Shown one piece after another: positions 3,729 through 24,639 of a DNA stretch of 24,639 bases. Each line of letters opens with the position of its first letter. The first letter of the stretch is position 1. This DNA is from Jaapia argillacea MUCL 33604 (Eukaryota; Basidiomycota; Agaricomycetes; Jaapiales; Jaapiaceae). The notes beneath the pieces were generated by a model, which saw nothing but the letters and a program-made list of their open reading frames with translations, was not told the origin of the DNA and ran no database searches. Location of the stretch: the NCBI GenBank assembly GCA_000697665.1, contig KL197741.1, forward strand, positions 314,232 through 338,870, in the 5' to 3' direction. Made by a program: the position numbers and the translations under genes.

Positions 3729-3860
3729 TGCGAGAAGGTCATGAAGATGACTGGCGGATATATGCTGTTTTCAGCGGAGTTTAAATATAGCTTAGATTCG
3801 TTGACTAAGTAGTCAAATAAAGTCAAAATACAGTCCATCGGGCGGCAGCCCAAAAAGCCA

Positions 3861-3872
3861 AAAAAAAAAAAT
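3861..3872 (+). repeat. poly-A tract next to duplication boundary
   Basis: An uninterrupted run of A sits about 30 bases left of the point (about 3903) where arm A of the inverted duplication begins to match arm B. It may be incidental, or a scar of the event that set this boundary. Confidence 0.6.
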
Positions 3873-3902
3873 ACCAAAAGAAACACCAAGCGGGAGTCAA
3901 AC

Positions 3903-4090
3903 ACGACGACTCGACTCGTGACGAACAGGTAGGCCCAAGTCATAACGGGCAAGGTTACTCAGGTGAACACAGGGCCGTTCCTCCTTCACAGCCTGTGGGA
4001 AGCAAGCGCCATCTGGAAGAGACCGTCCAGCGAAGATATTCGGCGCGTGCCTTGGAATCTGGAACGCATCCACCGTGGTGTTGGGGGTGG
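3903..4090 (+). pseudogene. relic of kinase C-terminal tail
   Basis: This stretch aligns base for base, with about two thirds identity by eye, to 23069-23250, the tail that follows the kinase C-lobe. In translation DEQVGPSHNGQGYSGEH here corresponds to DKQVGPSRDGQGSSGEQ there, and GSKRHLEETVQRRYSAR corresponds to ESLKRRREDSPSNEDTR. No kinase catalytic domain precedes it: the match stops at about 3903, beyond an A tract. It is an orphan tail left after the rest of the gene was lost. Its orientation towards R1a (tail +, R1a -, 3' ends facing) shows the arrangement both loci should have had. Confidence 0.75.
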
Positions 4091-4564
4091 AACGTCTTAG
4101 TGCGGAGAGAGCGACAGTTGAGCAGCGAGATTATGGGAGTTCTCACTTCTTGTTGTACGACACGTCTTTGGCCTGAGGGCTACATCGTTCGAGAGTTGTG
4201 CTTCCCCGCTCGTATATATCTATTACTACAGCCAGACAAGGACAAAGGATCCAATACCCGGATGAGCTCGAATGATTCGCAGTGAATTGGAAAGGCTCAC
4301 CGTCAGATACCGAATCACGATTAGACGAAACCTGTCCTTGAGCGCGACGTGACACTCGCCAATGTAGCAATGTCACGTGGGCTCAACGCTTTCTCGCTCT
4401 AGCCCATCACCAATACCTACCATACCGAGTTCCGAAGTATCATCAATCATTATGCCTTGGTGCGCAACCTGGGTTCATCGATCACTCTCTAAATATGTGA
4501 ACTGGTAGAATCTGCTCACCTACCAGCTGAACGGCCATATCATCATCAAAATCCACTTCCCACC

Positions 4565-5690
4565 TCTGCCATCGTCGGCAACTCAACTCTTCCTCGGACC
4601 CCGCCTCTGCGGGTGTGGAGAGCTGCCCTTCCCCAAAAGGCAGGAACTCAGGGTGTGCAGTTGTAGGCGTTTCTGGAGGTGGGTCGCAGTTCGCTATCAT
4701 CTTGATTCCGAGGTGGCTGAACAATCACTTGCGAGGGTCTATGATGTATGCCTATGCGAGCAACTCCGAGAGGGTAGATTGGAGTACGAATCACGCCGAA
4801 ATTCGGTGAGTCAGAAACATCAGATCGAGATAGGCGTACGAAACCGTTGGTGTCCGTGTCGTGGAAAGAATGTGAGTTGTATGCGCGGTCAATGTGTAGC
4901 CCTCTGGGGGGAATCTGTAGGGAGCATCAAAATCAACACATGTAAGAGGAACAGGAAGCGATGGCGTACCGCCGAAAAGAGGGTGACAAGTCCATCCACA
5001 GCTTAGAACGAATTCGAGCGCTACCGGGTCGAATCCGAAATCTGAACTCCAGTTCCAAACGAGCCAACCCTCTATCAATATTATCGCGCAAAACCCACAG
5101 GGTCAGTCACTTCATTCCACTCCTTCATCCCATCAAGATCCTCAACCTCCGACAAGGTTCATGCCGTCTTCGTGTCGAAGCTAATTGAGGATCGCGCCGT
5201 GCTGGTCGGATGATGACTCGTGGCTCGAGCGAGGGACGGAGGTGTCTTGAACCGAGGGAGTGCGCGATCCAAGGGGAGAGCGGACGGCAATCGTCGTCCA
5301 AACAAAATAGCTTCGAGCTGGGCGTTGGCGGCGTGCAGACCCGGGGGTCAGTGCAAGTCGAAGGTATCACCACGTCACTCGGCCCTGATGCTGCTGGAGA
5401 AGACGGTATTCAATGAGGGAACTGCAAGTGAGGGGTCAAATCAACACGTACTGGGACATCCAACCCGAAATCCGACAGATGAAACCTCTTCAACCACATT
5501 GCTCCTTTATGAATAACGCGGTGATTCATACACCATACTCCTGTATAGGTGATGTCACGAGCAAGAGCGTCGAGAGACTATGGGCGAGGAGGCAGTGAGA
5601 TGGGAGACGTCGGTGGTGGCGACGTGGGAGCAGTGATGTATTGCGTGGAATCTTGAATCAGTCGGAGTGAATCCGCAACGTGCACATCTC
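4565..5690 (-). pseudogene. R1a, decayed gene of unknown family
   Basis: Read on the minus strand, this matches 20700-21840 (R1b, plus) throughout. Shared islands are an acceptor-like CACTTGCAGTTC/TACTTGCAGTTC, a GACACCTCC(G/A)TCCCTCGCTC block, a candidate intron beginning GTGACTGACC and ending GATAG, and the translated segments VPLTCVDFDAPYRFPPEG here and VPLTYVDLNTPCRFP there. R1 would be a multi-exon gene starting about 100 bases from the CCDC137-like start (divergent) and ending towards the kinase. Neither copy gives an uninterrupted exon chain: TGA or TAG codons and frame changes fall within conserved blocks. The ancestral function is not recognised. Confidence 0.6.
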
Positions 5691-5792
5691 GACATTTCGA
5701 CGGTCGTGATGATAAATTAGCCATGTTTTCTTCAATTACCCTTTGTCGCTTCCACTATCTCGAATCACCAAAATTATCCCTTCACCACGAAC

Positions 5793-6734
5793 ATGCCTCA
5801 CAAACGAGCCAAACGCTCTGTCCGTGAAAAGGAGAGAAATGAAAAGTATGTCAGTCTCAAGTTCAATCCGCGTCCATCTGGCCCTGAAATCGATGTGTTG
5901 TCCAGAGGGCATGACCTCGCACCCAGATCTTCCAATTCCAGCTCGATGCAAGATGAGTCATTGCCGAAAGGGATGGCGAGAGTATTGAACGCTGCAAAGG
6001 TTAGGGAGGATTACCGGAAGCGGAGGTTGGACGAAGAGGACGGAGGGGAAACGAAGAAGAGACGGAAAGTTGACACGAAAGACGGGAAGGCGGAGAAAAC
6101 CAAGGCGAAGGAGAAAGGCAAGGGTGCGGTGCATATGGAGATTTTACCTGGAGAGAGCCTGTATCATTTCAATCAGTACGTTTCTGTCTTTGTCTATCGT
6201 TCCTTCGGCCTGTATTTCGTCGCTGACTGTGCGCCCAGACGTGTTGAAGATAATATGCGTCCTCTTGTCAAATCCGCTGCTCAAGCATCCTCCGCTCACG
6301 AGAGACGAAAACGAAAAGAAGCTCTGGAGTCTACCAAATCCCTAAAAACCCCCACCGGACCCAAAACGAAGGTCAAGCCAGGCCAGGACGATTCTTCCCC
6401 TCCCCCTCCAGACGAACTCCCATCATCAAAACGACACACAGGACCTACGGAATTCTTAACCCTCTCTTCCTCAGCCCCCAAAAGACTAAACGATATCGCA
6501 CAAGCACCACCCGAAATCAAGGTCAAGAAACGCAAACCACTCGATGCGACTTCATCGTCGAAGCATAAACCGAAACATGAAAACGTGTTGTCGTTGTACC
6601 AGGAGCAGATGATGGAAGAGGAGCGGGAGAAGGTCATTCGGCGGTACCGAGAGATGAAGGCGAAGAAAGTGACCGAGGGTGGTTGGGGAGGGGAGAGAGG
6701 AGGTGGTGAGGAAGATGATGAGCAGGTCGATTAA
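5793..6734 (+). CDS. CCDC137-like basic nuclear protein
   Basis: Three exons, 5793-5845, 5906-6175 and 6239-6734, encode 272 aa. Intron 1 (60 nt) has a GTATGT donor and CCAG acceptor. Intron 2 (63 nt) has GTACGT, an internal CTGAC branch motif and CCCAG. The spliced N-terminus reads MPHKRAKRSVREKERNEKGH, followed by DLAP and a second conserved-looking block, ILPGESLYHFNQRVEDNM. The C-terminus has a charged helix, REKVIRRYREMKAKK, then TEGGW. Composition (Lys/Arg/Glu with NLS-like KKRRK) suggests a nucleolar or chromatin protein. The resemblance to CCDC137 is from memory of its PGES-type motif and is moderate. A broken copy at 19440-20235 confirms the exon boundaries. Confidence 0.75.
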   Translation: MPHKRAKRSVREKERNEKYVSLKFNPRPSGPEIDVLSRGHDLAPRSSNSSSMQDESLPKGMARVLNAAKVREDYRKRRLDEEDGGETKKRRKVDTKDGKAEKTKAKEKGKGAVHMEILPGESLYHFNQYVSVFVYRSFGLYFVADCAPRRVEDNMRPLVKSAAQASSAHERRKRKEALESTKSLKTPTGPKTKVKPGQDDSSPPPPDELPSSKRHTGPTEFLTLSSSAPKRLNDIAQAPPEIKVKKRKPLDATSSSKHKPKHENVLSLYQEQMMEEEREKVIRRYREMKAKKVTEGGWGGERGGGEEDDEQVD

Positions 6735-7097
6735 CACGAGGTCTTCGCGATAGCCTTGGTGGCCCACGCTCGTGCCCTCGCTGTGGATAGCAGATGTCTA
6801 TCCTTCACGAGGGTGCGTTTGTATGCACTTCTATATTCTGGCCTATCGGTTGCGCTCACCTGGCCGCATAAGTAGCTTCGTGACGTTGACGACTTTTAGT
6901 CTATTCAGTTCGTCATTCGAGTGGGGAATTGTTCTAACAACATTAGGAGATACCCTTACGATGACATGTCTCGATGCCTGGCCTGGTAATTCGATGAAAA
7001 TGAATCAGAGCTGAAAGCGACTCCCTCCTTCCAATCAACCCGCGGCGTGACGCTCAAGCTCCCAATTAGCCCCTGCGTTAGTTCGCCTGTCTTCCTC
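6735..7097. other. intergenic, convergent 3' ends
   Basis: This lies between the stop of the CCDC137-like gene (+) and the stop of terpene synthase A (-), so it should hold two 3' UTRs. A short minus-strand exon chain starting at an ATG near 6965 was tried but gave no consistent open frame. Nothing else is recognised. Confidence 0.5.
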
Positions 7098-8644
7098 TTA
7101 CAATTGCACAAAGGTTTTGTACCCTTCGCGAACTGGATTCTCTCCATAATATCTTGCGCTGAGATAGCTAGCAATTGAGACATTGGACATCAGTTCAATG
7201 TAGACTCGGAAGAAAATGGACAAATGAAAGGTATACTTACCTCCAGTGGACCATCCCCGTCGCCATATCCTTACAGCCTCGTACAAGCAGTTGTAACTGG
7301 TCGTCACTTGCGGCGGTAAGAGGGAGTCGGCGTTCTGCATCCATGAATGCAGAATGGGCCTCTTGGACCAGTGCACACGCACGTAGAACTGCTTCTTGAA
7401 CCGAAAGATTTTCGTGATAAACAAGCAACGGGATTAGGTTGTCGACCTGATTATCACCCTGCGACCACCTGAAATTAGGGGCAGAACGGTTTCGAGGCGA
7501 GTGGTAATTACCAGTTCCTTGGGGAAGGAGACGATATCGTTGACTCTATGCCACTCTTGAGTTGGGATATCCGTGGTAAGGTGAAAGTACTTACAGGTGG
7601 ATAATCAAACAAGTTTTGTTGATGATGACTTGTGTGGCTTCGTGCGCGATTATTGAGGAGGGAAGGTCCAGGCGGTATATATACCTAGGTGTGGACTGGA
7701 GAATCAGCAACTCTCTGCCGAATAAAAAGGATTTCAATACTCAAGCAGAGCAATGCTAGGTAAGACACCGCTGCTCGTATGTCGCTGATCGAGGTGTTGT
7801 TGAACCGTCAAAATTTCTCCCTTCCGCTTGCCTTGCAACCACATCGCGGTGTTGATATATGCATGGAGTTCGTCGTGGATACGGCGCCGTGCATCTACAA
7901 TCAATCAGGAAATTACACGAATATCGCATCGGTTCGGACGGACCTTCGGAGGAATGGGGTACAATTGTTCTAGATATCTCCGCGAAAGCAGACATTATAC
8001 CATCCATTGCGGGACGAGGGCCAGAAAATGGTTGTGAACCCAGGCACCATGATACTGCATCACATGTCTCCCGATGATACTGGGCAGCTCTGAGACCATC
8101 AACATGGCCGTCATCGACGACTGTGAAGGGATGAAATACGACACTTGAAGTTCCCTCGTAAGGTTAAATACTCACCGTCATCCCAGATGAATATCTGTCG
8201 AAGGGAGGTTAGGATACTGGAAGAGGTGAATGGATTAAGTGAATACTCGCCCAGCCGTGGTAAAATGCCATCGCACGATACTCATCTGGCTCGGCGTCGG
8301 GGTAAAGACACGCAGCGAGTGAGGCGAAATCCGCTCGAATGACCCTACGACGTTCCTTATCATCTTTAACCCAACTAAACGAGTGGTCACGATGGGACTT
8401 TGGAACAGGACGATGTAGGTGGAGGTTTTTACCTGCAGAACCAATCATCGATTTCGTGATGCATCGAGGAGTATCGTTCGTTCATCCCATGACGCCAACC
8501 TGGCAAGAGCTCGTAGAGATTAGGGATGAGGACGCGGGATCCCTTGAGACGACGGAGCAAGGTCTCTTTTGCTGAGGTGCTCGACGCCGGCGGGCTCCAC
8601 GGGAAGAAAGGAATGGAAAAAGGCAAGGATACAGTCACACCCAT
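7098..8644 (-). CDS. class I terpene synthase A
   Basis: Nine exons: 8644-8433, 8374-8251, 8194-8176, 8120-7944, 7894-7741, 7684-7595, 7545-7512, 7458-7241 and 7167-7098. They give 365 aa, in the range usual for fungal sesquiterpene synthases. The metal-binding aspartate motif DDVVDD is at residues 117-122 (DDxxD), the NSE triad in NDIVSFPKE uses Asn261, Ser265 and Glu269, and the C-terminal Arg-Tyr pair is R348-Y349. The N-terminal LLPGWRHGMNE block is also typical. It should ionise a prenyl diphosphate, probably farnesyl diphosphate, with Mg2+ and cyclise it in the cytosol; the product cannot be predicted. Intron 2 has a GC donor. It is the tandem paralogue of synthase B, with a 538-base spacer. 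The open frame extends upstream to 8863 but has no ATG there, so MGVTVSL is taken as the start. Confidence 0.9.
8195..8250 (-). other. GC-AG intron (intron 2 of synthase A)
   Basis: On the minus strand exon 2 ends GGCTGG and the intron begins GCGAGT, where synthase B at the same position has GTAAGC. The intron is 56 nt, has a CTAAC branch motif 15 nt before the acceptor and ends CGACAG. Reading through it meets a stop, and the flanking exons join exactly as in synthase B (YHGW then IFIWDD). A non-canonical GC donor is therefore the best reading. Confidence 0.8.
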
Positions 8645-9182
8645 GTTCGGCGATGAGAAGGGTAGTAGTGGAACACCCAGATATAAATTGAATTGCTCAG
8701 GCGCCCAGGAACGGGTCCCATAAGGGAGAACGGAGATTTCAACGTTCCATTGGTCCAGTGACCTGAGTGCGATCGTGTATCCTGCTGGCAAGTTAAAATC
8801 ACACGCTCGGATGGGCGCTACCCACGATAAAGATAACCTGACACGGAGGAAAGTCCCAGGCACTGATACCTATAGACGCCAACCATAATCAAGCACGCGT
8901 TTGCATTTCGGGGTGATAGTCGGAGGGATTGAAGGGGAAGGAGTATTTCGGACTTGCATGGTATTCTGATGGCAAGGGAATGATGGATGGTGTTTGGATG
9001 GTTAGATGATACGAAAGGAGCTGAGACAAGAAATGAAACCCACCACTGTGACGCAAGCCCAATCACACCTTCATCAGGGAAAGCACCCAAACGAGTTGGC
9101 CGTTGAAAGCATCACACAAAATCGTCGGCAAGAAAAGGGACGTAAAGCAATGATAACGTCTTCAAGTATAGCGATCGAGAAA
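8645..9182. promoter_or_regulatory. spacer between terpene synthases
   Basis: This is the promoter region of synthase A and the 3' region of synthase B. On the minus strand a TTTATATC element lies about 45 bases before the A start codon. No further gene is seen. Confidence 0.4.
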
Positions 9183-10748
9183 TCAAAGCTGCATAAACGT
9201 CTTGTACCCTTCCCTAATTGGATTCTTTCCATAATACCTCGCACTCAAATAACTAAAAACAACCTCCCGTCAATCTTTCAAATCTAAGCGAGAGCAGGAA
9301 AAGAGCGAGCATACCTCCAATGAACAGCACCAGTAGCCAAATCCTTACATCCCTGTACAAAAGTCCGAATATTCCCATTAACTGGGAGTCGACGCTCAGC
9401 GTCGACGAACGCCAAGTGGGCCTGTCGGACTAGTTCGCAGGCACGGAGGATGGCTTCTTGTGTTGAGAGGTTCTCGTGGTGTACGAGGAGTGGGATGAGG
9501 TTGTCGACTTGGTTGTCAGCCTGTATTGTGTGATGAGGGACGTTTGGTCTTGTCTTGGGTTGATGGGGTACTTACTAGTTCCTTTGGGAAGGAAACGATA
9601 TCGTTTAGCCTTTCCATAGCGATTCGTTAGTTTATGGGCTGAAGAGATGAAGAGGCGAGGACGTACAAGTGAATGATCAAACAAGTCTTGTTAATGATGA
9701 CTTGCATCGCTTCGTGATTAATAACGGAGGGAGGGAGATCTAACCCATGAATATACCTACGCATCCACCATGAGCGCACGAAATCGCAAAAGGGGGTTGA
9801 AAGCCTTACTCTAATAAAGCGATACTAGGGAAAATCCCACTACTCTGGTTCCTCTGCTCGATATGTTCTTTCATGGATAAGATTTCACCTTGGCGTTTAG
9901 ATTGGAGCCAGGTGGCGGTGTTGATGTATGCTTGGAGTTCGTTATGGATACGTTCTCGGGCGTCTATAATTGAGGAGAGCGTTATCATGTGAAACAATGT
10001 GCGGGGGAAATTAGGACGCTAACATTGAGAACAATTAGGCACGATAGTTTTAGCGATCTCGATGAATGAAGACATGATTCCGTTCGTTGGTGGACAGGGA
10101 CCGACAAACGGTTTCGGACCCATACACCAAGAAATAGTATCGCAAGTCTCGCGATGGTACTGTGCTAATTTTGGGTCGTCGAGCGTGCCATCGTCTATGA
10201 CTGTTGTGAAGAATTAGGATTAGGATTTGGAATTGTTCAAGGTTTGGGGTGGGGATCTTACCGTCGTCCCAGATGAATATCTGGCTCGGTGATGGAGGTT
10301 AAGAAGATTGGAAGGAGGGAGGGAGGGAGGGAGGGAGGCTTACCCAGCCGTGGTAGAGAGCCATCGCGCGATATTCTTCTGGTTGGGCTTTAGGATAAAG
10401 ACACGCAGCTAACGAAGCGAAATCGGCTCGAATGATCCTCCGACGTTCAGTTTCATCCCTAACCCAACTATCCACATCAAACCAAACCGATTTCAGCGCT
10501 TTTGGAAGAATAAAAGTAGAGGCGCCGACGTACCTCAATAACCAATTATCGATCTCATCTCGCATAGACGGGTAACCTTCGTTCATATCATGTTTCCAAC
10601 CGGGGAGGACTTGGTATAGGTCTGGTATGAAGATTCTGGAGCCTTTGATACGGCGGAGGAGGGATTCTTTCTTTGATGTGTTCGATGAGGTTGGGATATC
10701 GTGAAAGATGGGGAGGGAGAGATTTGGGTTGAGAGTTAAGGTTGACAT
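9183..10748 (-). CDS. class I terpene synthase B
   Basis: Nine exons: 10748-10534, 10467-10344, 10280-10262, 10200-10024, 9963-9810, 9756-9667, 9609-9576, 9520-9315 and 9252-9183, giving 362 aa. Seven of the nine exons are identical in length to those of synthase A (124, 19, 177, 154, 90, 34 and 70 nt), proof of a tandem duplication. The aspartate motif DDVIDD is at 118-123, NDIVSFPKE carries Asn262, Ser266 and Glu270, and the Arg-Tyr pair is R345-Y346, so all catalytic signatures are present. Exon 8 is 12 nt shorter than in A. Intron 4 has a weak GTTAGC donor. Substrate and product are inferred only at family level (prenyl diphosphate cyclisation). Its 5' end faces the KEL3-like gene across 1.3 kb. 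Confidence 0.9.
9388..9406. repeat. 9-bp perfect palindrome inside synthase B exon 8
   Basis: GTCGACGCT and AGCGTCGAC are separated by a single base. It encodes part of a conserved DAERRLP segment, and synthase A codes the same residues without the palindrome, so it is probably codon-level coincidence. Confidence 0.8.
10317..10338 (+). repeat. GGGA tandem run in synthase B intron 2
   Basis: Five GGGA units plus GG. On the coding (minus) strand this is a CCCT-type polypyrimidine tract just inside the donor of intron 2. The plus strand has enough G runs for a G-quadruplex. Confidence 0.8.
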
Positions 10749-12062
10749 GATTGGGCGGATTGGGGTGAAGGAGGTGACGGTGTTGGCAGTTGATATAGTA
10801 GACGGGGCGGTTCAGAATTAACTTCGGGTTAAGGTATCCTTCTGGTGGTTCGGGAATACCGATTGGGGAAGTCGGTGTAGTGTAAACGGCGTGTTTTCCT
10901 GAAGAGGGGTTGGGACTCATGATGGTAGGGACGAATGGAGGTAGGGGGATAGGAGGTCCCACTACGGCACGGAGGCTATGGTAAAAATATCGTGTTAAGA
11001 GCGGAGGGCACGGCGATTGGGGGTTGTAGATTGACACCAGGGTACTATCGGAGTAGTTGTCGGTCCAAAAGCAGACAGTGCACATGTTGGAAGATAGAGG
11101 GCCGCGAGATGCGAGGTGTTATCTAGGCTCGAGGAGGCTCGGAGTGTCCATAAGTCAGAGGAAGAAGTTGTCTGACACTCCGCGGCTGAGGTGATGGATG
11201 ATTTATCCGGGCCGGGGTGGATTTTTGTGGGAGAAGCTCGGGCATGGTGGGAGGCGAGGTAGGGTATTGTTCGTGAGGATGAGAAATAATGGGAATGATC
11301 GAGCGAAAGGTACTGCAGAGAGAGGAAATTTGAGCGATGTGGACTGAGAATTCCCTGAAGGGAGCCGATCGCGAGATCTTGGTTGTGATAGGAGGGTGAT
11401 AGAAGGTTGACGGGGCGGAACTCACTAGGTCTCGCAAGTGTACTCGATGAAACAAACAACTCGACATCGTTATCTAGCTCAAACTCCGAGGAAGTTTCGA
11501 GATGGGATGGGAGAACCTTGGAGCAAACGGAGATATCGGGGGAAGGATGCTCGATCCTGGAAGCACAGAGGGAAGGTCTCTTTTCGCCGAGCGGTAGCGG
11601 GAACGGGCTGACGATGTGAGGATAGTGTGCGCCGTGCGGAGAGAGTGTGCCCGTCGACCCAACAACCAATTGCAGAGATAAAGGGTGTGGGTGCTTAGTC
11701 GCCTTGGTCACAGGGGTTGTGCGAGATCAGCATGCCGCCAGCTAAAGCCAGATTGATGGGACGGATCTGAGCATCCCAAAATAACGCGACGCGGAGAGGA
11801 CCAGCTGAAGCGAATAACGCGCCCGCCGCTTCTGCTGGCAACAGTGCATTCCGAGTGTCGAGTACTGCAGATCTAAATCTGATGGTCAGAGAGTGTCCGA
11901 AGGGTTCCACTGTAATCGGACACGACACTCCCAGCGAGGGAGCAAGACACGTGGCGATGATGGAGGACGACAGCTCAACATCCTCACAACTCGACAACTC
12001 GACCATCTCCGATCATCTCTCCCCAACTCCATCCTCCTACGCTCCACTCGTCTCGCCAATCC
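10749..12062. promoter_or_regulatory. divergent intergenic region, synthase B / KEL3-like
   Basis: This is the shared upstream region of two divergent genes. The last 100 bases before 12063 are CT-rich, as expected for a fungal 5' leader. A minus-strand frame at 10995-11711 is open for 238 codons and Ser-rich, but it has no internal ATG, no motif and no splice partner I could find. Another at 11695-12006 begins with ATG and encodes 103 residues with an Ala/Leu-rich stretch. Neither is supported as a gene. Confidence 0.4.
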
Positions 12063-15000
12063 ATGGCCAAGAAGAAATCCTCAACTGCAAACACGAAAGC
12101 AGAAGCAAAAGCATCCAAAAAGGCCAAAGCAGCTCAGAAAGTCGAACGAAAGGAGAAGAAGAAAGTTGGCAAGTCCAAACGACCTGAGGATGAGGATAGC
12201 GACGATGATCTGGAGAGTGTCTTGGACAAGGTGTGGATGATCTGCTGCCTGATTTCTCGAGCTCGCTTGTACATGTATACTGATTGAATGCGCGTCGCTT
12301 AGTAGCTCCGCCGCGAATGGGAAGCAGCACATAAAGTCACCGAGGAACTAGTCGAAGGTCCTCCTTCTCGTCGTGCAAATGCAACGCTAACACCATGTCC
12401 GAGTGGGAACTATCTATGGAGTATCGGCGGAGAGTTCTTCTCTGAGGATGGAAGAGCTGTGAGTATTCGTGCATCTTGGTCCTTCGTGCAGGTGTTGAGG
12501 GTGTGATCATGGATAGTATTTCTATAACGACGTCTTTCGCTACTCTCCGGAGAAGGTACGCCTCACCGTTGCCCATATACCTCTGCGCTGCAGTCTTAAC
12601 CTAGTGGACCGTCGATAGGACGAATGGCGCAAATTCGTCTCGCCAAACTGTCCAGGTCCAAGATCCGCCCACGCAGTCGTAGCCTCACCAGCAGGAGGAG
12701 GAAAGCTATGGCTTTTCGGTGAGCCCATCCGCCCCTCTATTCCCTTATCGCTCCCATTCTCATCCCGCCACCTCAAACAGGCGGCGAATTCTCCTCCCTC
12801 CACCAAACAACCTTCCACCACTACCGCGATCTTTGGTCTTTCGATATCACAACGCATACTTGGGAAAGAGTCGATACTAAAGTGAGACCTAGTGCAAGGA
12901 GTGGACATCGGTGAGTCTGCTTTACTCTGGGATTTAGGTGGTTGGGAGGCTGATGGTGGTGTGGGGTAGGATGGCGATGTGGAAACATTATATTGTGTTG
13001 TTTGGGGGGTTTTATGATCCGGGTATCACGAGTAAGTTCCTTCATTCCCTATCGCATCGTATTTCTTTTCCCTTGCGATCGATCCCCTTCTCCATTCACT
13101 CTCACCTCCCACCCTCTACTTTCCCCTCCCCCATTCATCTGTTCATCCTCTTCGCTCCCTCTCCCATCCAATTTACATCCAATCGTCTTCCTAACCTCCA
13201 CCCATAGCTCGATACCAAAATGACCTATGGCTCTTCGACACCCAAGAATACAAATGGAAGCAGCTCGAAGGGAAGGAAGGTGAGAGGTGGCCTTCGTACG
13301 TATCCGTTTCTTCACACCCGTATACTCTTATCACAACCCTATCTTATATCCTCCCGTCTCTCTCCTAACCCCCGATCACTCACCACGCTTACTATTCCCC
13401 CAGTCCTCGAAGTGGGTTCTCCTTCTTACCCACACCCGATGGTATAATCCTACATGGTCCGTCCCACTCTTCCAATTTACGCTTCCCGCCCTGATTAATG
13501 TTGATAGGTGGGTATTGTAAGGAGTACGTCAAGGGTAAGAGACCAGTCGGAGTAATGTTAGAAGACACCTGGTTCTTAAAGTGCGTACAATCCCAACCAT
13601 CTCACTCATCCTTCCTCACACAACCCCCACTCAATCAGACTTGCAATCAACACACCATCCGACCCAAATTCCACACCTGCACCCCAGACGAAGACCAAAA
13701 CGAAAGAAAAAGAGAAGGACTACGCCGCCATTACGTTTAAGTGGGAGAAGAGGAAGAAGGTGGGATATGCGCCTAGTTTGAGGAGTGGGTGTACCATGGG
13801 ATATTGGGTTTCTAAAGGTTCGTTTTCCTCGTTCCCTTCCTTCGTTTTTGTTTGTGCCTCTGCCTTCTTGCACGTCTTCCTCGGCCCCCTATTGCTCCTT
13901 AGTGTTGACCCTCATACTTGATGTTGGAGCCCTTCACTTTCTTTTGTGTTGTTTTGATGAAGCGTTGCTGATATCTGTTTGCGGTTTTGTAGGTATGGGA
14001 GTCATGTTTGGGGGTGTTACGGATGAAGATACTAGTGAGGAAGTTTTGGAGAGTGTTTTTTGGAATGATATGTATGTCATTTTGTCATTTTTCGTTTATT
14101 TCCATCATGGCGTTATCAACGCTGTTTCATCGTCACCCTCCCCCTTTGATCTTTATCCTCTCCGTCCTATCGCCTAACATCTCAACCCATAACTTCAGGT
14201 ACGGATATCAGGTAGCAGGTAACGGCCGATGGGTATCCCTATCCCTCAAACAACCAAAGAAGAAAGTCGGACAAGGGAGGAACAAGAAGAAGAAACAACC
14301 TGGTCGTCCTGACCCCGAAAGAGATTCGGAAGATGAAGGGAGTGATACTGGGGTAGGTTTTCTCGTGGAGTTCCGTACCTTGGTATTACGGTTGATATCT
14401 TGTTGTGGGAGAAGAAGGTTGAAGAGCTGGAAGTAGATCCTGATGATCCGAACTTTACTGTTCCGCTTCCGAGGTATAACGCCATGCTCGCGGTACTTCG
14501 CAACACACTTTATATGTACGTTCTCTCTCTCCGTCACCACACCTCTCCCTACTCCCCGCCTGACCGCCAACTAACCAACGCCACCACAGATACGGCGGCA
14601 TCTACGAACGCGGTTCCCGCGAATACACCCTCGATGATTTCTACGCTCTTTCGTTAGATAAGATGGATAAGTTTGTTTGTTTGAAAGAGAGCGGGGTTGT
14701 TTTGCCTAAGGAAGGGGAGGAGGTTAGTAGTAGTAGTGGGAGTGAGGATGGGAGTGATGATGAGGATGATGAGGATGAAGATGGGGAAGAGGAGGAAGGG
14801 GAGGAAGACGTGGTTGTTGAAAGAGAGGGAGGGGTGGATGGTGGAGATATGGATGAGGAGGTGATGATGGAGGAGGTGGAGGTGGAGGAAGCAGAACCTT
14901 CCGAGGCGGAAAAGGTGGGTTATCTTTTCATTATTGCTCGCCTTGACATATAGGCTCATTGCGACCCTAGGCCGCATTACGATCTCAAGCCACGGCATTT

Positions 15001-15430
15001 ATGGGTGTTTCAAAGGATGCGACCCGATCACCTGAAGATGTTCTCAGTACTCCATTACCTGGAGAAACGCTCGCGATATTCTACGCTCGTTCTCGTAAGT
15101 TCCCTTACCTTGGATTGAGAAGTACTGAACTCATTGTTTTAGGCGAGTTCTGGACTCAGAAAGCTCATGATACGAGCGATAATCGAGGGAAACTCTTGAG
15201 GCGAGATGGGTTTACAATTGCATCTGAACGTTACGGTTCGTGATTCCTCCACTTACCTCGCTCGAGGATTGTTTGACATGGGAATTTCTACAGCCGAGTA
15301 TAAACCTATTTTAGAGGAAGTTGAGAGGATCTTGGCAGAAGCAGGATTAGATGAGGAAGAGATGAGGAAAGGGGCTGCTGGAGCTGTTGGTGGCTCTGGA
15401 GCTGCGGGACAAAGTCGGAATCGAAGGTGA
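12063..15430 (+). CDS. kelch-repeat protein, KEL3/KLHDC4 family
   Basis: Seventeen exons: 12063-12230, 12306-12458, 12517-12555, 12619-12718, 12781-12910, 12970-13031, 13208-13295, 13404-13456, 13508-13580, 13639-13817, 13993-14071, 14199-14352, 14412-14515, 14590-14914, 14971-15094, 15143-15235 and 15294-15430. They encode 686 aa with no frame conflict. The N-terminus is Lys-rich. Kelch blades follow from about residue 90, seen as LWSIGGEF, LWLFGGEF, IVLFGGFYDPG, GIILHGGYC, GVMFGGVTD and LYIYGGIYE with paired Trp positions (DLWSFD, DLWLFD). An acidic linker of Asp/Glu/Ser comes next, then a C-terminal DUF4110-like segment (FYARSREFWTQKA). The first-intron acceptor chosen avoids an immediate in-frame TAG. 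Yeast KEL3 and animal KLHDC4 share this architecture; the molecular role is not established. Confidence 0.92.
14700..14910 (+). repeat. purine-rich acidic tract in KEL3-like exon 14
   Basis: About 210 bases are almost purely A/G with scattered T, encoding an Asp/Glu/Ser/Gly run between the last kelch blade and DUF4110. It is slippage-prone and intrinsically disordered in the protein. Confidence 0.75.
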
Positions 15431-15791
15431 AGACATCACTCACTTGGTTGGTGGAATCTGCTTTTTCTGTGCTTGGGAAAGGTTATAAGTGGAAAGCCGT
15501 GTGCAATGTATAACTAACGATGTTGTGGGCTGGATTTGATAAATAAATGTATTCCAATGCCCATGGCTGCTCTGCAGTTACAGAATGTCCAAGCTTCAAG
15601 CCTGAAATGTGACAATCATCTACCCAACGCACTCTCCTCGTACATAAGTTAGGAAGTCTGGGTTCGGCCAAGTCGTGACGAAAAGGAGAGATGAGAAGGA
15701 ATCGTCGGAGACGGAACACCTGATCAATCCTGGCCAAATGCACTCTCCTAGAGCGTCTCTCGCCTGTGCTAATCGCCCCGCCTTGGCCCTT
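15431..15791. other. intergenic, convergent 3' ends
   Basis: This lies between the KEL3-like stop (+) and the stop of the unknown gene (-). It contains AT-rich stretches such as gataaataaatg near 15538 suitable for polyadenylation. No gene is seen. Confidence 0.5.
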
Positions 15792-17817
15792 TCAAGCAGA
15801 GTAAACCCCCTCGCTATCTCCTTCCTCCTCTTCCTCCTCCTCGAGATCAAATCGAGCCCGTTTCCTAACTCTGGGCGACTCTGCGTCTCCTTCCTCCTCC
15901 GTGATCCTCTTGCTAGATTCAAGGCGAACTACATTGGATGTAGAAGCTTCTCCACGATTGCTGCCCTGGGGAGAGCACAAAGATAGCTGTGCTGGGTTGT
16001 CAACGCTGTCAAGACGACACATCTCTTTCACCAGGTGTCGCTCGGTGGAACGGGATGTAAGATCAGTACACCAACAACCTTCTGAAATATTCCAGAGGCC
16101 ACTGAGGAATGGTAATCCTTGTGAAGACTGATTTGCATGTATGCTATCGTATTCAAGATCCCGACAACCAGGACAAAATCGCCGACCGAGTGAGATATCT
16201 CTCTTGTAATGGAGTCCCAGGGATGGGACCTTGATAATGTTGGTTCCCTTGATGAGTGAGAGGCTAGAAACATACAATGCCCACTGGTCGTCATCGATGG
16301 CGCTGTAGCATATGTGTCCGGATTTCTTGAGACCGTCGAGGAAGAGTTGGATTTTCGAGTCACGAGGGAGAGGCGTGGATATGTGTACTGCGGGTAGGAC
16401 CCGCTGGCATTGTCGGAACCACTGTAGAAAGCAGTAACGAAACCACTCTTCATTGTGATATGCGTGATCTTTGAAACGTAACCAAAGCAGTGCACCGATG
16501 ATCGAACGGACGTCCACACTCTCCTCGAAGGGTCGAACCCGAGGTGTCGAAATAGGTGTGCGTCGAGTCGGTATGAGCCACGAATAGGTAGAGATGCAGT
16601 CGTGCCATTCGACCGGAAATTTGCTGACCCAGGTAGGGTGCCATGAGCCGGATTGTTTAACTTCATACTTCTGGAACTCCTCCTCGAGGAGAGGAAGATA
16701 TTCCACCAATGAAGACTCCGAGACGCAATCGAAGAACCTGTACAGGTCGTCTCGAATATCTTCCACGGCCTCCATCGAAACCGTTGGCGGATATACCATG
16801 AAGGAGAGGGTTTGCCAAACCGTGGGCCGGCTTTGGCTCACTTTGGGATGTAGGATCCACGGCAAACATTCCTCCTCCACCTCCTCGAGACTTCACGGAT
16901 CACACCGTCACACATCAACGTTAACATTCTCAGTCAATGGTATCAATACTGAAAGGACATACACGGATTCGCACGCGACACATCCTGACCAACAGTCTTC
17001 GTCTTCCTCTGATTCTGTGACGCCCATAGTGTCACACAAGGCGACGAGAATGGGGTAATTTTGATAGTCGTAGAGCCAGGAGAAGAGGGTAGCCCAAAGG
17101 GACGTCGGAGTATCCCAAAAGGAGCATGTATGATCACTACTCTTCCGAACGAATTCAGCGAGAGGTTCGTTTGCGAAACCCGATGATGCCAAAGGCCCTT
17201 TGGAGACACGAATCCAAGCGCTCACAAGTTTCTCTAAAGTGAGGCCAGGACCGCGAGGTGTGCTGATTGGCGACACGAGCATCAACCACATGATGGCTGC
17301 GATCCGTATAGGCGCTGTGGCGGTCCAAACCTTCTGCTTCAACGAAGCAGGCCACAAATCGGGACCCCCCTCCTCTGCTAGACGCATGGTGCGCTGCTCG
17401 TAGTCTCTTTGGTATTGTGACCATTCGTATATGGAAAGTGGCTCATCTGGGACAACGAGATGTTTGTTGTCCTCCGGACTGTCACTATCCTCAGACTGCA
17501 TGTAGTTCCGCACCCACTCCTCATCACCTGGCCTCCAAAGACTCCAGATATCTGCAATGGATCTGTGTCCCTTGATGAAGTCGCCCAACAGAGCGATCGC
17601 GATCGAATAGTGCAACCCTATTCCAAGGAACGTCCGGTATACGAAGAGCGGTATGACGGGAGGGTTTGAAGGATTGAAGTTAGGGCGACAAAGGTCCTTC
17701 AAAGGGTCGAAATCCATGCCGGGCTCCGAAGCTATCAAAAATAACCCATCGCCTCCGATCGGCACGACATCGATACAAGGAGAATGAGAGATGCTCACCC
17801 TGGCTGCCCGATGACAT
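15792..17817 (-). CDS. unknown 628-aa protein (family U)
   Basis: Three exons: 17817-17799 (19 nt), 17731-16963 and 16890-15792. Intron 1 (67 nt) runs from GTGAGC to GATAG; intron 2 (72 nt) from GTATGT to GAAG and removes two in-frame stops. The protein begins MSSGSQASEPGMDFD. The middle is Trp- and Leu-rich and probably helical. CPGC (502-505) and CWC (535-537) could bind zinc, RVRKRAR (603-609) resembles a nuclear localisation signal, and the C-terminus has a Glu run. I do not recognise the family. Fragments of related sequence occur at 24120-24317 and weakly at 20290-20456, so it belongs to a small dispersed family. The start could instead be upstream in the frame open to 17963 if intron 1 is not spliced. 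Confidence 0.7.
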
Positions 17818-17907
17818 TCGGCAACCTTGCGATGAGGACGATGATGGTTAGTTGGGGCTGAAGGATGTGGTGAGAGTGTAGGGGGGTGAAAATGTGTCGT
17901 AGCTCGG

Positions 17908-18066
17908 GGCGCCGAGTCAGCTTTTAACGGTGCTTGAGACATGAGGCGCCTTAGACGCTTCATATCACGGCGCCTGAACAAGCGCCTGAGCGCCTATGGC
18001 GAAGCTGGTTTGCGCGTTTAACCTTACCCTTGTCCCGGCAAACTCTTTCTGGCATCGTCGGGCGCC
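17908..18066. promoter_or_regulatory. GGCGCC/AGCGCC motif cluster upstream of family U gene
   Basis: GGCGCC occurs at 17908, 17945, 17969 and 18061, and AGCGCC at 17981 and 17989, all 90-250 bases upstream of the start codon at 17817. The copy at 18061 reads GTTTGGCGCC on the minus strand, which resembles an E2F-type site. Function is a guess from density and position. Confidence 0.3.
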
Positions 18067-19439
18067 AAACTACCATGTGCAGCTCCGTCAATCCAGGTAA
18101 GTGAAGCTGCGTCTTAATGCCGATGCATCAGGACGAGTACAGGTTTCCAGACACTCGATACAGTTTGCGCATCTGCGCTAATGCTTGCACAGTTTGACAG
18201 CAGTGTGGTAGACGTCCGTCACCAGATATGTTGACGCCCAGGAATGAGGCTGTGTCATGGGCGCTTACGACAACCTAATCACAGGAGGAAGACATGACGA
18301 TCGTTCCCATGAGGCCGGGCTTAAAAGACCTAGTCAGAAGCGCCCAATGGTGGCGATTATGAGAGCGAGCGCTTGATAAATGAACGACGAGCCAATCACC
18401 GAGGATCTGTATATCCATTTCAAAATGAGGCCTCCTACTCCATTCTTCCCCGTTCCTCTCGCCCTCGTGATCGTCTCCACTGATCCAATCTCGTTAATAT
18501 CCCGCGTTCGGATTCCGCTGCTCTCATGCAACTATAACTTCATTCCAATTTCGGACTTGCCGTGTATCCCTGTGATGGATTTGGGGGTGACGACTACGTC
18601 GGGTAAGGATCTTCATTCCAGTTCGAGATCGTTCTGTAGAATCGACGAAGTTTGCCTTGATGAGGATACTGGTTTCGGGGTTGGCTTAAGTTTGAGTTCT
18701 TTACCTTCGTCAAGGCTCGGTCGATAAAGCGAGGTCGTGTCGTACACATCTGAGCAAAACGCGGTTGCTGGAGAATTCATGGCCAACATGGATGAGCTGA
18801 TTGGTTTGGAAGGGAGAACGAAGGAAAGATGAACGGACGTTGCGTGGGGTTAAATAACTCGGATATTGGACAGTTTCCTTCAGTTGTCCATGCGGCATTC
18901 ATTAAACTCTTCTCTCATCGTCCTCGCATTTCCAGACCGTTCATCCACCCCTTCTCTTCCAGAACAATTCACCCCAAACAGCCCTTGGAGAATTTGAATT
19001 GCCCTGAGTTGTGCATGGAAGGTGGGAGGCCGGGCGTTCCTTGAGAAAACTGAGGAGGGTGCTGAGTATAGTTGGCGACGGCGAAACGGGTGTCATCAAA
19101 TCAAGACGTACATATTAACTGGCCATGAGCTAACTGGCGCCCCGTTGGTTCATTCATGCAACATCGTGGAGCCGGTGAAAAGTCCGCGGCGTTCGTAGTG
19201 GTGGATTGGGTTTAGGAACCGGGTGCGACTGGGACTCCAACGAGAAGCGGTATAGATCAGCTTCTACTCTGGCACGCTCAAAATCGGCGACGAAGGTCCG
19301 AGCGGCTGACTCCACCCCGGGGTGAGTTAAACAGTCATTCGGAAGTATGGAAATGTGGACGTACTCACCAACCGCTCCGTTACCAACGACTTGAGCATCA
19401 TTGGCCTCCCCGTATACCATTCGAAATTTCAGCATAGAA
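18067..19439. other. gene-poor stretch, nothing recognised
   Basis: The open frames here (for example 116 codons from 18380) show no motif and no splice-linked continuation. Homology between the duplication arms ends at its right edge, about 19440. A minus-strand frame at 19154-19320 (RTFVADFERARVEADLYRFS) looks protein-like but could not be joined to anything. Confidence 0.4.
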
Positions 19440-20235
19440 CCCCGTCTCCGAAAGATGTCAATCATCTCTCCTCGCCATCCACCCTCCGTCATTTCTTCAC
19501 CTTCGTCTCTCAATACAGCTTAAGGACCTTCTCCCTTTTCTCGTCCATAGTCTGTTTTGGCACAGCGACGGCAGCTTCGTGTTGAGTTAACGGATTGAGG
19601 CGCTGTCGATTTTTGTGGGATGGAGCTCGGTCGGATTCGTTTAGTCGTTTCGGATTGAGGATAGGGTGGTGGATTGCGCGCCAGTGGACCCCGTGCGTCG
19701 TTTGATGTGAGCTCGTCTGGAAGGAGAGAGGATAAGTCAGCGTGATGGCTGTCGTTCGGTGTTTAGTGGAAGATTTGGTTGACTCGAGAGGGCTTTTCGT
19801 ATCGTATTACCAGACTTCAGCAACCGAGAGGGCTCATGCTGCCTTCAACACGTCTGTACGCAATCAAAAAGAGATGGGCTAAGTGAGAGAGAGAGAAAGA
19901 TGGACGATAAGGATGAGGCGCACCAATTGGAATAGAATTCCGTCAACATTGTTTCGCTTCTTCCTGACCTCCATTTCTCTCCTCCCGATCTACATTTCCG
20001 ATACTTATCCTTCAATTTAATAGCAGCCAAGACCGCCATCATCCATTTCTGCAACGATCTATCGTAACTTACATCGAGTTGGAAATAGAGGATCTACATG
20101 CAACGCTCAAGTTTGGATGGAGTTCGAGGTCATCTCCTAGCTATGGTAAGCCATCAACCTTCGGGCAGATGTATATGGAAGTCAGGATCGACGTACTTTT
20201 CGTTTCTCTCTCCCTCTCGGTCCATTGCTTTAAGG
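19440..20235 (-). pseudogene. broken CCDC137-like copy
   Basis: Minus-strand sequence matches the gene at 5793-6734 through all three exons and both introns. MMAVLAAIKLKDKYRKCR parallels GMARVLNAAKVREDYRKRR, the acceptor CAG before ACGTGTTGAAG at 19853 matches that at 6238, and MDEKREKVLKLY-stop-ETKVKKMTEGGWRGEM parallels the C-terminal MEEEREKVIRRYREMKAKKVTEGGW. Disabling changes are clear. Exon 3 reads RVEGSMSPLGC then stop, another stop replaces an Arg codon in REKVIRRYREM, and the middle of exon 3 is heavily shortened. Confidence 0.85.
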
Positions 20236-20259
20236 ATACGCAGTGGTTCCGAGCCAAAT

Positions 20260-20690
20260 CGATGTCGCGGTGACTACGGCAAACGACCGACAATCACGAG
20301 ATAATCAAAGCAGTACCTTTCAGACTTGGAATGAGGAGGCCCTTCAGAGATTGTAGCCAAGTCAACCCAAGCTCGAGAATGATGGCGGTCCTCGACGTCG
20401 GCTAAGTCTGCGATGGATTGACCAGTTCGAGGGGGAGACATAGCATTGCGAACCATATATATCCTATACAATATATGACCTGGTGTGAGCGAGTGGCCTG
20501 GATGTAACGCCGGCGGTCGGTGTCGTCAAGGTTGCGTCGAGGTCAAGCCGTCAAGGAGAACAATGGTTGGAGATTGCTGGCAGCAACTTGGCAGCAACAG
20601 TCTCGCCGCCGCTGACCTCAATCCATGGCAGTCCTCACTTCATACTATGTCCTAAGTTTCTACCCACTCCTTATCATTCCTACGTATGTC
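20260..20690. other. insertion in arm B; possible family U fragment
   Basis: In arm A only about 100 bases separate the divergent CCDC137-like and R1 starts; here about 470 do. On the minus strand at 20456-20290 the frame reads GQSIADLADVEDRHHSRAWV, then DLATISEG. This is similar to GHRSIADIWSLWRPGDEEWV of the 628-aa gene (middle region). Similarity is weak, about 35-40 percent by eye over some 35 residues. It could be a third fragment of that family. Confidence 0.35.
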
Positions 20691-20699
20691 GTCCCAATC

Positions 20700-21840
20700 T
20701 CACTTAATTTGCAACCAGCATGTCCCATACGTCGTGCTAGCCCATCGCCTCTAGCGAAAGATTCAATCCCGCATCTTCACTACGACGTACATCCCCCAAT
20801 CTACGCCTCCTCGCCCATGCTCCCTCGGCACACTCTTGGGACATGACCCACACCGAGATTCTGCCATCTATGATCAACGAATCGTTGCGTTTCGCAAAGG
20901 AGGGAGGTGAATTGAAGAAGGTTCGAAGGTTAGATTTCTGCCATCGTGAGGTTGGAATTCGGGTGGGATGACAAGGTCTCTCCCCATATATATATCAGTA
21001 TGTGCTAATCTGACCTCTTACTTGCAGTTCACTCGCTCAACATCCTTTTATCTAGCAGCATTACGAAGTCGCAAGGCGGCTGGACCTTCGTTACGCCCGG
21101 TCACTCTGGCATCTACATGTCGCCTTCTCTTTGGATCGCACAGTCTCTGTTTAGGACACCTCCATCCCTCGCTCATTACGACTCGCCGTCTGATCAGGAC
21201 TATCCATGCCCAGCCAGCACGACCCATTTGGCGTATAGTTTTGGCATGAAGACGGAATGGATTTTGTCGGAGTTTGAGGGTCATGGCGGGATAGAGGGCC
21301 GGAAGGAGTGACTGACCTCGTGGATTTTGCGTTGTGATAGAGGGTTGGCGGATTGGGAACTGGATCTCCGAGGCTTTGAGGTCTAGAATTCGTTGTCTTT
21401 GGTGGATTTGCTTGTCGTCCTCACTTCGGTGGTACGCCCTTCGCTTCCCGTTCCCCTCACATATGTTGATTTGAATACTCCCTGCCGATTTCCCCTCAGA
21501 GGGCTACCCACCAACCGTGCATACGCCCCGCTTCATTTCGTAGACACCAACGCCCACGATTTCTTACTCCCTACCTCAATCCCAGGTTCCTCATGTACCG
21601 AATCTCGATAAGACTCGTGTTTCAGTCCACGCTCTCCAAGACGCTCGCACACTGCACAACGCACACCGCACACATCACAGAGCCTCGCGAGCGATCTCAA
21701 CTATTCCTCGACCCAGGATTCGAAATGATAGCCAACTGCGACCCACCGCCAGCAACACCTACAACCGCAAGCCCCGAGTTCCTGAATCTTCTAGCGACAG
21801 CTGTCTGCGCCGGTAGAGGCGAGTCCCGAGGAAGGTTGAT
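20700..21840 (+). pseudogene. R1b, second copy of unknown gene R1
   Basis: Matches R1a (4565-5690, minus). The longest coding-like part is 21052-21311, reading HSLNILLSSSITKSQGGWTF, then VTPGHSGIYMSPSLWIAQSL, then SFGMKTEWILSEFEGHGG. It follows an acceptor TACTTGCAG at 21028 and precedes a candidate intron at 21308. Later blocks give VPLTYVDLNTPCRFP and NCDPPPATPTTASPEFL. No uninterrupted exon chain from start to stop was found: an ATG near 20728 meets a stop after six codons. It may be a pseudogene, or I may have missed introns. Function unknown. Confidence 0.55.
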
Positions 21841-22430
21841 GTGCAGATGATAATAGAGATGGAAAGGGGATTTTCACGATCATATGTCATGATTATTCGT
21901 TCGATTGTAGGTAAGCGGGTTCCATCAGCTCTACGACCGAGAAAGTGACTGATTACCTCAGATTGCAGGCCAACGCACAACGATTGACTTTGGTTTCGGG
22001 CCTCGGTAAGGCAGTGGTGCTGGCAACGAGCTAGTACGAGAAAAGAGTTGAGCTTACTCGACGCTGGTACATTGGCGAAGAATGTGTCGTGCTCGAGGGA
22101 GGTGTTGGGTTAATAGTGGTTTGTGGTTTGGCATCTGATGGTGAGCCTTTCCGATTCACTGCAAAATTATTCAAGCTCATTATCTCCATCTATGTACAGA
22201 TATATACGAGTGGGGAAGAACATGACATCAATGTCTCGAACGATGTAGCCAAGATGTAGTTATAGTAAATCTGAGTCCAAGATACACCAGCCGCCATTCG
22301 TGTTATCATATTTCGCATGATCTACAAGTCAAGCCAAGGTGTAGAGGTTTAGTCCAACAAGAAGTGAAAACCCCCGTAATCTCGCCGCTCAGCTCTCGCT
22401 CTCTGCGCATTGCGATGTTCCATCACCAAC

Positions 22431-23267
22431 TAGCGAAAATGTCGTCCATGGAGATCTTCGAGGAGTAAGTGTAGCCTCATTACGTTTACATAGCTGTTGC
22501 TGATCACCTCCAGGCCAATATTCTTGTCGATAACCGAGGTCACTGCCAACTCGCTGACTTCGGTCTTGCTGCATTTGCAGAAGCAACCCAGGGAGCATAC
22601 ACAACCAGTAGCAGGCCTGGATCACCGAGATGGATGGCAGCCGAGCTGCTGTTCCCAGAAAGATTTGATATGGTTGGGACTCGCCGAACGTGTGCGACCG
22701 ACATCTATGCATATGGATGTGTCTGTATTGAGGTCAGTTGACTACCTTCTCGAATCTTGCTGCTGATCCTCACGCTACCATGTTTTTTAGCTCCACACAG
22801 GGTTGGCACCATTCTACGATCTCAACGCTGACTCGGGCATCTTGGTCAGGATCCTGTCTGGGGTTAATCCCCAGCCACCTCCTGGGAAGGAGCTACCACC
22901 GAAGATGTGGAACATTGCAGAAAAGTGCTGGCGTATGGCACCAGAAACTCGTCCGAAGGCAAAGAATATCGTGAAGGAATGTCATCGATCGTTCAACCTG
23001 GCCCAAGTCAGCAATCGAGCGGACTGATGTTTATAGCTGACGCTCTCCGAAGTGACTCGGATTCGTCGACAGATCAGGACGACTCGGGTGGTGACAAACA
23101 GGTCGGACCAAGTCGTGACGGGCAGGGCTCCTCAGGTGAACAGAAGGCGGATTCTCCTTCACATCCTTCGGAAAGCTTGAAGCGCCGTCGGGAAGACAGT
23201 CCGTCCAACGAAGATACTCGACCTCGACAGCGTCCGTTGGGGTTTTGACCGAACTGCGTTAAGGAGC
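22431..23267. other. micro-inversion splitting a kinase
   Basis: At 23266 the minus-strand kinase reads GLAYLHS and then loses homology; at 22435 the plus strand begins ENVVHGDLRG. Flipping 22431-23267 joins YLHS to ENVVHGD, exactly the kinase helix E to catalytic loop transition, and in frame. It also puts the tail next to the spacer as in arm A. The triplet AGC (AGCT at the right) is present at both breakpoints. Confidence 0.85.
22435..23250 (+). pseudogene. kinase C-lobe and tail (inverted half)
   Basis: Plus-strand exons 22435-22464, 22514-22732 and 22791-23027 encode the C-terminal half of a protein kinase. They show NVVHGDLRGANILVD (catalytic loop with HGD), ADFGLA (DFG), SPRWMAAEL (P+1 region), DIYAYGCVCIE (helix F) and a closing RPKAK block. 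Introns are 49 and 58 nt with good sites. A tail frame (DSSTDQDDSGGDKQ and a basic LKRRRED) follows. It may be joined by a 56-nt intron from about 22983 to 23038; otherwise the protein stops at 23027. There is no N-lobe upstream: sequence left of 22431 is the arm B spacer. The missing half lies on the other strand at 23266-24115. Confidence 0.85.
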
Positions 23268-24115: not shown

Positions 24116-24119
24116 TGGC

Positions 24120-24317
24120 GCAGTACACTATAGTACTGGATATGGTCTACATCACAGTTAAGACAGATATGCTAATTATATCTGGCATCTTGGCTGTGAT
24201 GTAGGTTCATGACTGGGACCTCGATATCCTCCATTTTGTGAAGGGACTTGCTGGTGGCCTACAATGCCCATTCATCATTGGTGAGGACATGATGGCAAGT
24301 GTGTCGGGACTTCCTGT
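24120..24317 (-). pseudogene. relic of the family U (628-aa) gene
   Basis: Minus-strand translation RKSRHTCHHVLTNDEWAL, then a stop, then a stretch ending LHHSQDARYN. It aligns with KKSGHICYSAIDDDQWALYV and LHYKRDISLG of the protein at 15792-17817. A following ICLNC matches its FCPGC. At least two in-frame stops are present. Homology ends abruptly at 24317, where the putative LTR begins. Confidence 0.7.
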
Positions 24318-24639
24318 GTTGTGAACGTATTCGGACTCGTATATTTCATTCGTATTTGTTTGTATTTTCACCGGACTTATTCGTTTTCGTATCGTTTCCC
24401 TTGTCTACGATACTTAGTACGATTTCTCTTTATCTTATCTCATCTTATCTTATCTCAGATCCTGTATAACATCTTATCTTATCTTATCTTATCCTGTACA
24501 GCCTCGTACAGCCTTGTACAGCCCCACCATTGTTCTTAGTTTCATTGTTCTTCTTCATTGTACTTCATCCATTGTCTCAAACCTTAACTCGTTTGCCATT
24601 GTATAAGTACATTGTCTCACTCGTTATTGTTCGTCGTAC
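24318..24639 (+). mobile_element. possible LTR element, left end
   Basis: The sequence starts TGTTGTGAACG at the exact point where the family U relic loses homology. It is AT-rich and non-coding, contains repeated CTTAT units (24433-24495), three GTACAGCC copies and a TATAAGTA box near 24603, and runs off the window. This fits the U3 part of an LTR beginning with TG. The other end, target-site duplication and internal genes are outside the window. Confidence 0.45.

Follow-up and report, generated by a model that had tools for sequence, protein, structure and literature searches.

Comparison with described systems

A large number of tyrosine kinase-like (TKL) kinases in a basidiomycete was reported for Laccaria bicolor (PMC2838846). 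Here, we describe a locus of Jaapia argillacea MUCL 33604 in which a member of a numerous kinase family was analyzed together with two inverted arms, A and B. The window, i.e. the whole stretch of DNA that was analyzed, is 24,639 bp long and corresponds to positions 314232–338870 of contig KL197741.1 (C33). All comparisons were made inside this single genome (43.7 Mb, 95 contigs). By themselves, the short introns and the presence of kinase and terpene-synthase families suggest a basidiomycete origin. The arms very probably arose through an old inverted duplication of a block consisting of the end of a kinase gene, a region designated R1 and a CCDC137-like gene, where the kinase belonged to a clustered family, and the copies then decayed independently.

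As reported for L. bicolor (PMC2838846), many related kinases were found in the J. argillacea genome. A search with one exon of the kinase C-terminal half (C-half exon), in which 150 of the 190 candidates were scored, gave at least 121 matching places over many contigs, the closest of these being clustered on one contig, and a search with one exon of the N-terminal half (N-half exon) gave 50 matches. Unlike the kinases of L. bicolor as presented there, the TKL label used here is derived from domain and structure matches and is not a classification. The C-half exon matched PF00069 (43.5 bits, cutoff 31.7) and PF07714 (39.1 bits, cutoff 23.1), which identifies it as a protein kinase, and the best match of the kinase in the PDB was RIPK3. 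The N-half exon did not match any Pfam family, and neither did the N-terminal region (gene U).

The locus is similar to inverted segmental duplications with asymmetric pseudogenisation in that it has diverged arms in opposite orientation and a gene whose frame is open in one arm only, the other arm retaining a relic. Unlike in such systems, the kinase of arm B is split by an additional nested inversion, and transposon sequence meets both arms on the kinase side. The features of the arms and their edges are as follows (position in the window, strand, description).

3797–3906, no strand assigned: fragment of a foldback element, 110 bp; arm A is bounded on the left by the inner edge of this fragment
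3900–4042, plus: arm A kinase remnant, the last ~140 bp of the C-terminal tail; direct to 23075–23220
4075–4192, plus: arm A kinase 3' flank; 4080–4192 pairs with 22430–22313, and 4075–4155 matches C33 at 194 kb
4178–5282, minus: arm A R1, probably a former coding gene; 67% to 22250–21121
5793–6734, plus: arm A CCDC137-like gene, intact; exons 5793–5845, 5906–6175 and 6239–6734, 272 aa; exon limits set by hand
19465–20246, minus: arm B CCDC137-like relic, from pairwise comparisons
21121–22250, plus: arm B R1 relic; pairs with 4178–5282
22313–22430, minus: arm B kinase 3' flank; pairs with 4080–4192 and is separated from the tail by the nested inversion
22432–23268, plus: nested inversion, kinase 3' half (catalytic loop to tail), 837 bp; stop codon 23246–23248; AGC at both ends
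23269–24316, minus: kinase 5' part (ATP-binding lobe to GLAYLH); 73–80% to five paralogs; two nonsense codons
24317–24639, plus: first 323 bp of a long terminal repeat (LTR) inserted in an N-terminal kinase exon; TCCTG at 24312–24316

Inverted arms

An earlier reading of the window, made from the letters alone (the sequence-only reading), had proposed an inverted duplication, and this was confirmed. Comparison of the window with itself revealed an anti-diagonal of 3902–6700 against 22430–19465. Local alignment of arm A (3902–6740) with arm B (19420–22430) gave a score of 470.5 in the inverted and 28.5 in the direct orientation, and the scores of 60 dinucleotide shuffles averaged 18.1 and did not exceed 24.5. 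The following inverted pairs were aligned using sensitive settings.

4080–4192 with 22430–22313: 75%
4178–5282 with 22250–21121: 67% over 1180 columns, E 4e-136
5384–5622 with 21065–20777: 62%
5832–5922 with 20210–20122: 66%, weak, E 0.001
5925–6074 with 20095–19942: 64%
6230–6696 with 19862–19465: 62%

The identity of the inverted pieces was 62–75% with these settings and 73–83% with standard settings. A forced global alignment of the arms contained 1800 identical bases out of 2340 aligned and 996 columns with gaps. Exact inverted matches between the arms were at most 17 bp long. Copying took place at the DNA level, as non-coding sequence is common to the arms: both the kinase 3' flank and a stretch upstream of the CCDC137-like gene could be aligned. 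Gene order and orientation are the same in both arms, but only once the inversion 22432–23268 is undone. Judged from these alignments, the inverted segmental duplication is real and its arms are old.

With an identity of 62–75% and no exact match longer than 17 bp, both a duplicate-haplotype artefact and present-day recombination between the arms are unlikely. The arms as a haplotype or assembly duplicate were rejected since their identity is too low, and the shortness of the exact match led to the rejection of arm recombination as a live process. The suggestion that such recombination could invert or delete the interior is thus unlikely to apply now.

Nested inversion in the arm B kinase

It had been proposed that three genes occur in opposite orientation in the arms and that arm B ends at 22430. 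The opposite orientation was found for R1 and the CCDC137-like gene, but not for the kinase. The arm A kinase remnant (3902–4042) matches 23075–23220 on the same strand (79%), directly, unlike the rest of the arms, and the arm B kinase lies beyond the proposed end, at 22432–24316. Translation showed that its 3' half (HGDLRG and, past an intron, ANILVDNRG to the tail) is located on the plus strand from 22432, the 5' half (YKSTVHRL to GLAYLH) being on the minus strand with its end at 23269.

Five close kinase copies (C33 at 194, 221, 295 and 359 kb, and C9 at 296 kb) were aligned to each half separately. In all five, the end of the N-half match and the start of the C-half match were at most 5 bases apart on one strand. 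The 3' half aligned from 22435 in each of them, extending to 23248–23252 in three and to 22985–22986 in the two without a tail. The junction between the halves reads GCAC-xxx-GAAAATG in three paralogs and GCAT-xxx-GAAAAT in two; in the window, GCAC-AGC closes the 5' half and AGC-GAAAATG opens the 3' half. On the other side of the segment, positions 22393–22428 match a stretch 47 bp past the tail in the 359-kb paralog (86%). In addition, the stretch that follows the kinase in the 194-kb copy, where the tail is absent, matches arm A at 4075–4155 (73%).

Undoing 22432–23268 restores three adjacencies, namely that of the 5' and 3' halves (as in the five paralogs), that of the tail and 3' flank (as in the 359-kb paralog) and the order found in arm A, with the tail followed by the 3' flank and R1, so one inversion explains both junctions. 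As aligned, this single inversion is what makes arm B collinear with arm A, the placement of AGC being ambiguous. No inverted repeat in register was found at the inversion ends beyond AGC, which suggests end joining; local comparison of the 70-bp ends in inverted orientation gave 6 bp at best, out of register. AGC (3 bp) alone is shared by the ends, so that the inverted recombination sites of a site-specific invertible switch are absent.

The flipped segment matched eight genomic places as DNA, the window included. All 50 N-half matches were compared with all 121 C-half matches within 1.5 kb. A C-half match was found for 47 of them, and 45 of these are collinear; the other three N-half matches have no C-half match. 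The two halves are on opposite strands in the window copy only, and the other non-collinear case, on C39, has both halves on one strand and appears to consist of two adjacent genes. A literature search for an intragenic inversion in a fungus gave no match, from which absence from print is not claimed.

Nonsense codons and LTR in the arm B kinase

In the exon that adjoins the LTR, tblastn comparison with the 194-kb paralog revealed two in-frame stop codons and zero frameshifts. Both positions are sense codons in the 194-kb, 221-kb and C9 copies. The second is also sense in the 295-kb and 359-kb copies, where the first could not be aligned. Two exons compared with the 194-kb copy contained no indel, and their mismatches by codon position (6/5/17 and 8/7/25) were mostly in third positions (p = 0.0087 and 0.00046; p-values for mismatches by position modulo 3 are uncorrected throughout). 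Comparison with the 359-kb copy gave one exon with a single 3-bp indel. The third-position excess indicates that in each pair at least one lineage was under selection; this pattern and the lack of frameshifts suggest that the arm B kinase died fairly recently.

The LTR that interrupts the gene at 24317 has at least 40 genomic matches, its own included (40 of the 138 candidates were scored). A second copy of the kinase–LTR junction was found in the locus L054, where the whole LTR is 559 bp long, has TG...CA ends and is flanked by TCCTG on both sides. These ends and the 5-bp target-site duplication, together with the many genomic copies, are those of a solo LTR insertion, and no notable difference from such insertions was found in this comparison of the LTR. 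Past the LTR, L054 contains the family N-terminal region, namely residues 3–155 of the 194-kb stretch at 46%; the window has residues 157–271. Positions 24266–24639, including 51 bp of kinase exon, recur in L054 (374 bp, 99.2% identical). This repeat probably represents overlapping contig ends rather than two insertions, because 51 bp of the kinase precede both LTR copies. A full-length LTR retroelement behind the two copies was rejected on the same ground. The inversion, the two nonsense codons and the exonic LTR insertion leave the arm B kinase dead as a predicted gene.

CCDC137-like gene and R1

The asymmetric loss of the CCDC137-like gene, already seen in the sequence-only reading, was borne out. 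In arm A, the spliced frame is open across three exons. The arm B relic, in one pairwise alignment, had 487 identical bases among 676 aligned exon bases, 3 stops and 38 exon indels, 29 of which shift the frame, versus no frameshift in the kinase exons compared. The homology of this end is the weakest part of the arms because it rests on pairwise comparisons only. The name CCDC137 was not confirmed, as no Pfam family scored above its cutoff and nothing in the PDB matched up to E 1, the presence of CCDC137 in these libraries being unchecked.

When the genome was searched with the R1 part 4536–5183 as DNA, arm B was recovered independently (69%, E 1.9e-72), and no further place matched. The R1 open reading frame (ORF) used as a protein matched only itself and arm B, the latter with two stops. 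Mismatches in 4536–5183 were distributed as 71/31/55 by position modulo 3 (p = 0.00036), with p = 0.014 for 4178–5282, and the same test gave no pattern for the kinase 3' flank (p = 0.47) or the stretch upstream of the CCDC137-like gene (p = 0.26). The distribution fits a minus-strand gene with the third codon position at multiples of 3, which suggests that R1 once coded for a protein on the minus strand of arm A. Only 12 of the 38 R1 indels between the arms are multiples of three, so R1 has decayed in at least one arm. Decay in both arms had been proposed. It was found in arm B (stops, indels); in arm A, no full-length frame could be made out, yet the substitution pattern points to former coding.

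Arm A kinase remnant

In arm A, the kinase homology starts at 3900–3902 at a sharp junction with the foldback fragment. The latter (3797–3906) is part of one arm of a near-palindromic element of ~780 bp, near-whole copies of which are found on C35 and C18 (87–92%); both arms of one element on C35 and one on C18 match. The arm A tail is identical to the arm B tail at 117/145 positions (81%) and to three paralog tails at 107/146, 89/124 and 98/137 positions (72–73%).

Alternative explanations

In the sequence-only reading, the decay was reciprocal, each arm keeping one working gene, the CCDC137-like gene in A and the kinase in B. The CCDC137-like gene is indeed open in arm A only, and the kinase homology is nearly complete in arm B only, where it covers almost the whole length of the gene versus the tail alone in arm A. 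However, the arm B kinase is distributed over two strands, has two nonsense codons and is interrupted by the LTR, and the arm A kinase ends abruptly at the transposon-fragment junction. The kinase is thus broken in both arms and the decay is not reciprocal: reciprocal loss implies in each arm a working copy of the gene that the other has lost, and the arm B kinase is broken in three ways. This explanation is considered highly unlikely. It is improbable, to a lesser degree, that the kinase side does not belong to one duplication and that the arm A tail has a separate origin in another member of the family. In favour of this, the family has many copies, clustered on C33, a transposon fragment lies at the arm A junction, and the arm B tail resembles the 221-kb paralog (103/128, 80%) about as closely as it does the arm A tail. 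Against this, the arm A tail is closest to that of arm B among the tails compared, and with the flip undone both arms show the same succession of tail, 3' flank and R1. It is mainly this shared order that the sister relation of the arms rests on.

The nested inversion could also be a local misassembly, in which case the real kinase would be collinear and would still carry the nonsense codons and the LTR. The flip is known from one assembly alone, and the recurrence of the 374-bp stretch close by at 99% identity suggests an imperfect join. On the other hand, both junctions lie in continuous sequence in a window without N, the breaks are clean and only 3 bp are in common. Assemblers rarely flip at a match as short as this. 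A misassembly therefore seems unlikely. Several observations do weigh against the duplication and decay proposed here. Besides the single assembly, the 374-bp recurrence hints at a problem of assembly near the window end, though the window has no N. Given the closeness of the 221-kb paralog, a sister relation of the two arms is not proven by the tail alignments by themselves; the copies at 194 kb and on C9 have no tail. In addition, only arm A was listed when the whole genome was searched with the CCDC137-like protein or the DNA of 5184–6740, and R1 and the CCDC137-like gene matched nothing identifying in any library tried.

Under an old inverted duplication with independent decay, the events may be arranged as follows. 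The block of kinase end, R1 and CCDC137-like gene would have been duplicated in inverted orientation long ago. The arm A kinase may have been cut by a break that was repaired with transposon filler, or the duplication may simply have ended in the kinase tail. After the duplication, the flip in arm B may have occurred by end joining at the 3-bp microhomology. The arm B kinase would have been lost much later than the arm B copy of the CCDC137-like gene.

Neighbouring genes and the kinase family

Two further genes or gene groups lie between the arms.

7098–10811, minus: tandem pair of terpene-synthase-like genes, at about 7.1–9.0 kb and 9.2–10.8 kb
15792–17993, minus: gene U, related to the N-terminal region of the kinase family, without a kinase domain

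The interior had been described as single-copy, and it turned out to be partly multicopy. The terpene-synthase-like genes form direct repeats (72–90%) with a spacing of ~2.1 kb; they matched Terpene cyclase 6 in the PDB (E 5.7e-4) and, below the cutoff, Pfam Terpene_syn_C_2 (E 0.066). The 361-aa ORF of gene U had 13 genomic matches, its own included, two pairs of which look like pieces of one locus. Six matches lie upstream of kinase copies and share their strand: four on C33 (221, 295, 359 and 368 kb), one on C9 and, in L054, the N-terminus of the window kinase. The other ORF of the gene was similar to the paralog N-terminal region (32%, E 1.9e-23), and neither of the two ORFs matched Pfam. 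From these similarities, gene U is the N-terminal region of the kinase family without a predicted kinase domain. Downstream of it, on the plus strand at 15661–15680, there is a 20-bp match to the kinase tail (85% to that of arm B), which is probably due to chance.

Eight kinase-exon matches of at least 62% to the window copy (itself included) cluster in mixed orientations on C33 at ~194–368 kb, a region most of which lies outside the window. The match at 304.5 kb carries two stop codons. Outside the arms, the 3401–3731 part of a minus-strand gene at 2424–3770 has three closely spaced relatives on C44 (80–81%). A Pfam search with 10 single ORFs gave no match up to E 0.1 for any of them, and Rfam at gathering thresholds and a tRNA scan gave zero matches.

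Significance for the kinase family

The history of the locus looks like ordinary birth and death of a clustered kinase family through events of known kinds, and no general view is altered by it. The only function to be expected of the duplication is that of the CCDC137-like gene surviving in arm A. A putative read-through transcript of arm B would be antisense to the 3' halves of the paralogs (74–78% over the matched part in five copies) and might serve as a source of small or antisense RNA tuning the kinase cluster, a role that we regard as extremely unlikely. The locus provides a base-resolved example of the loss of a clustered fungal kinase copy, comprising a duplication, an intragenic inversion at 3 bp of microhomology, the appearance of nonsense codons and the insertion of a transposon. 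In addition, it illustrates that a direct match within an otherwise inverted pair can reveal a hidden second rearrangement.

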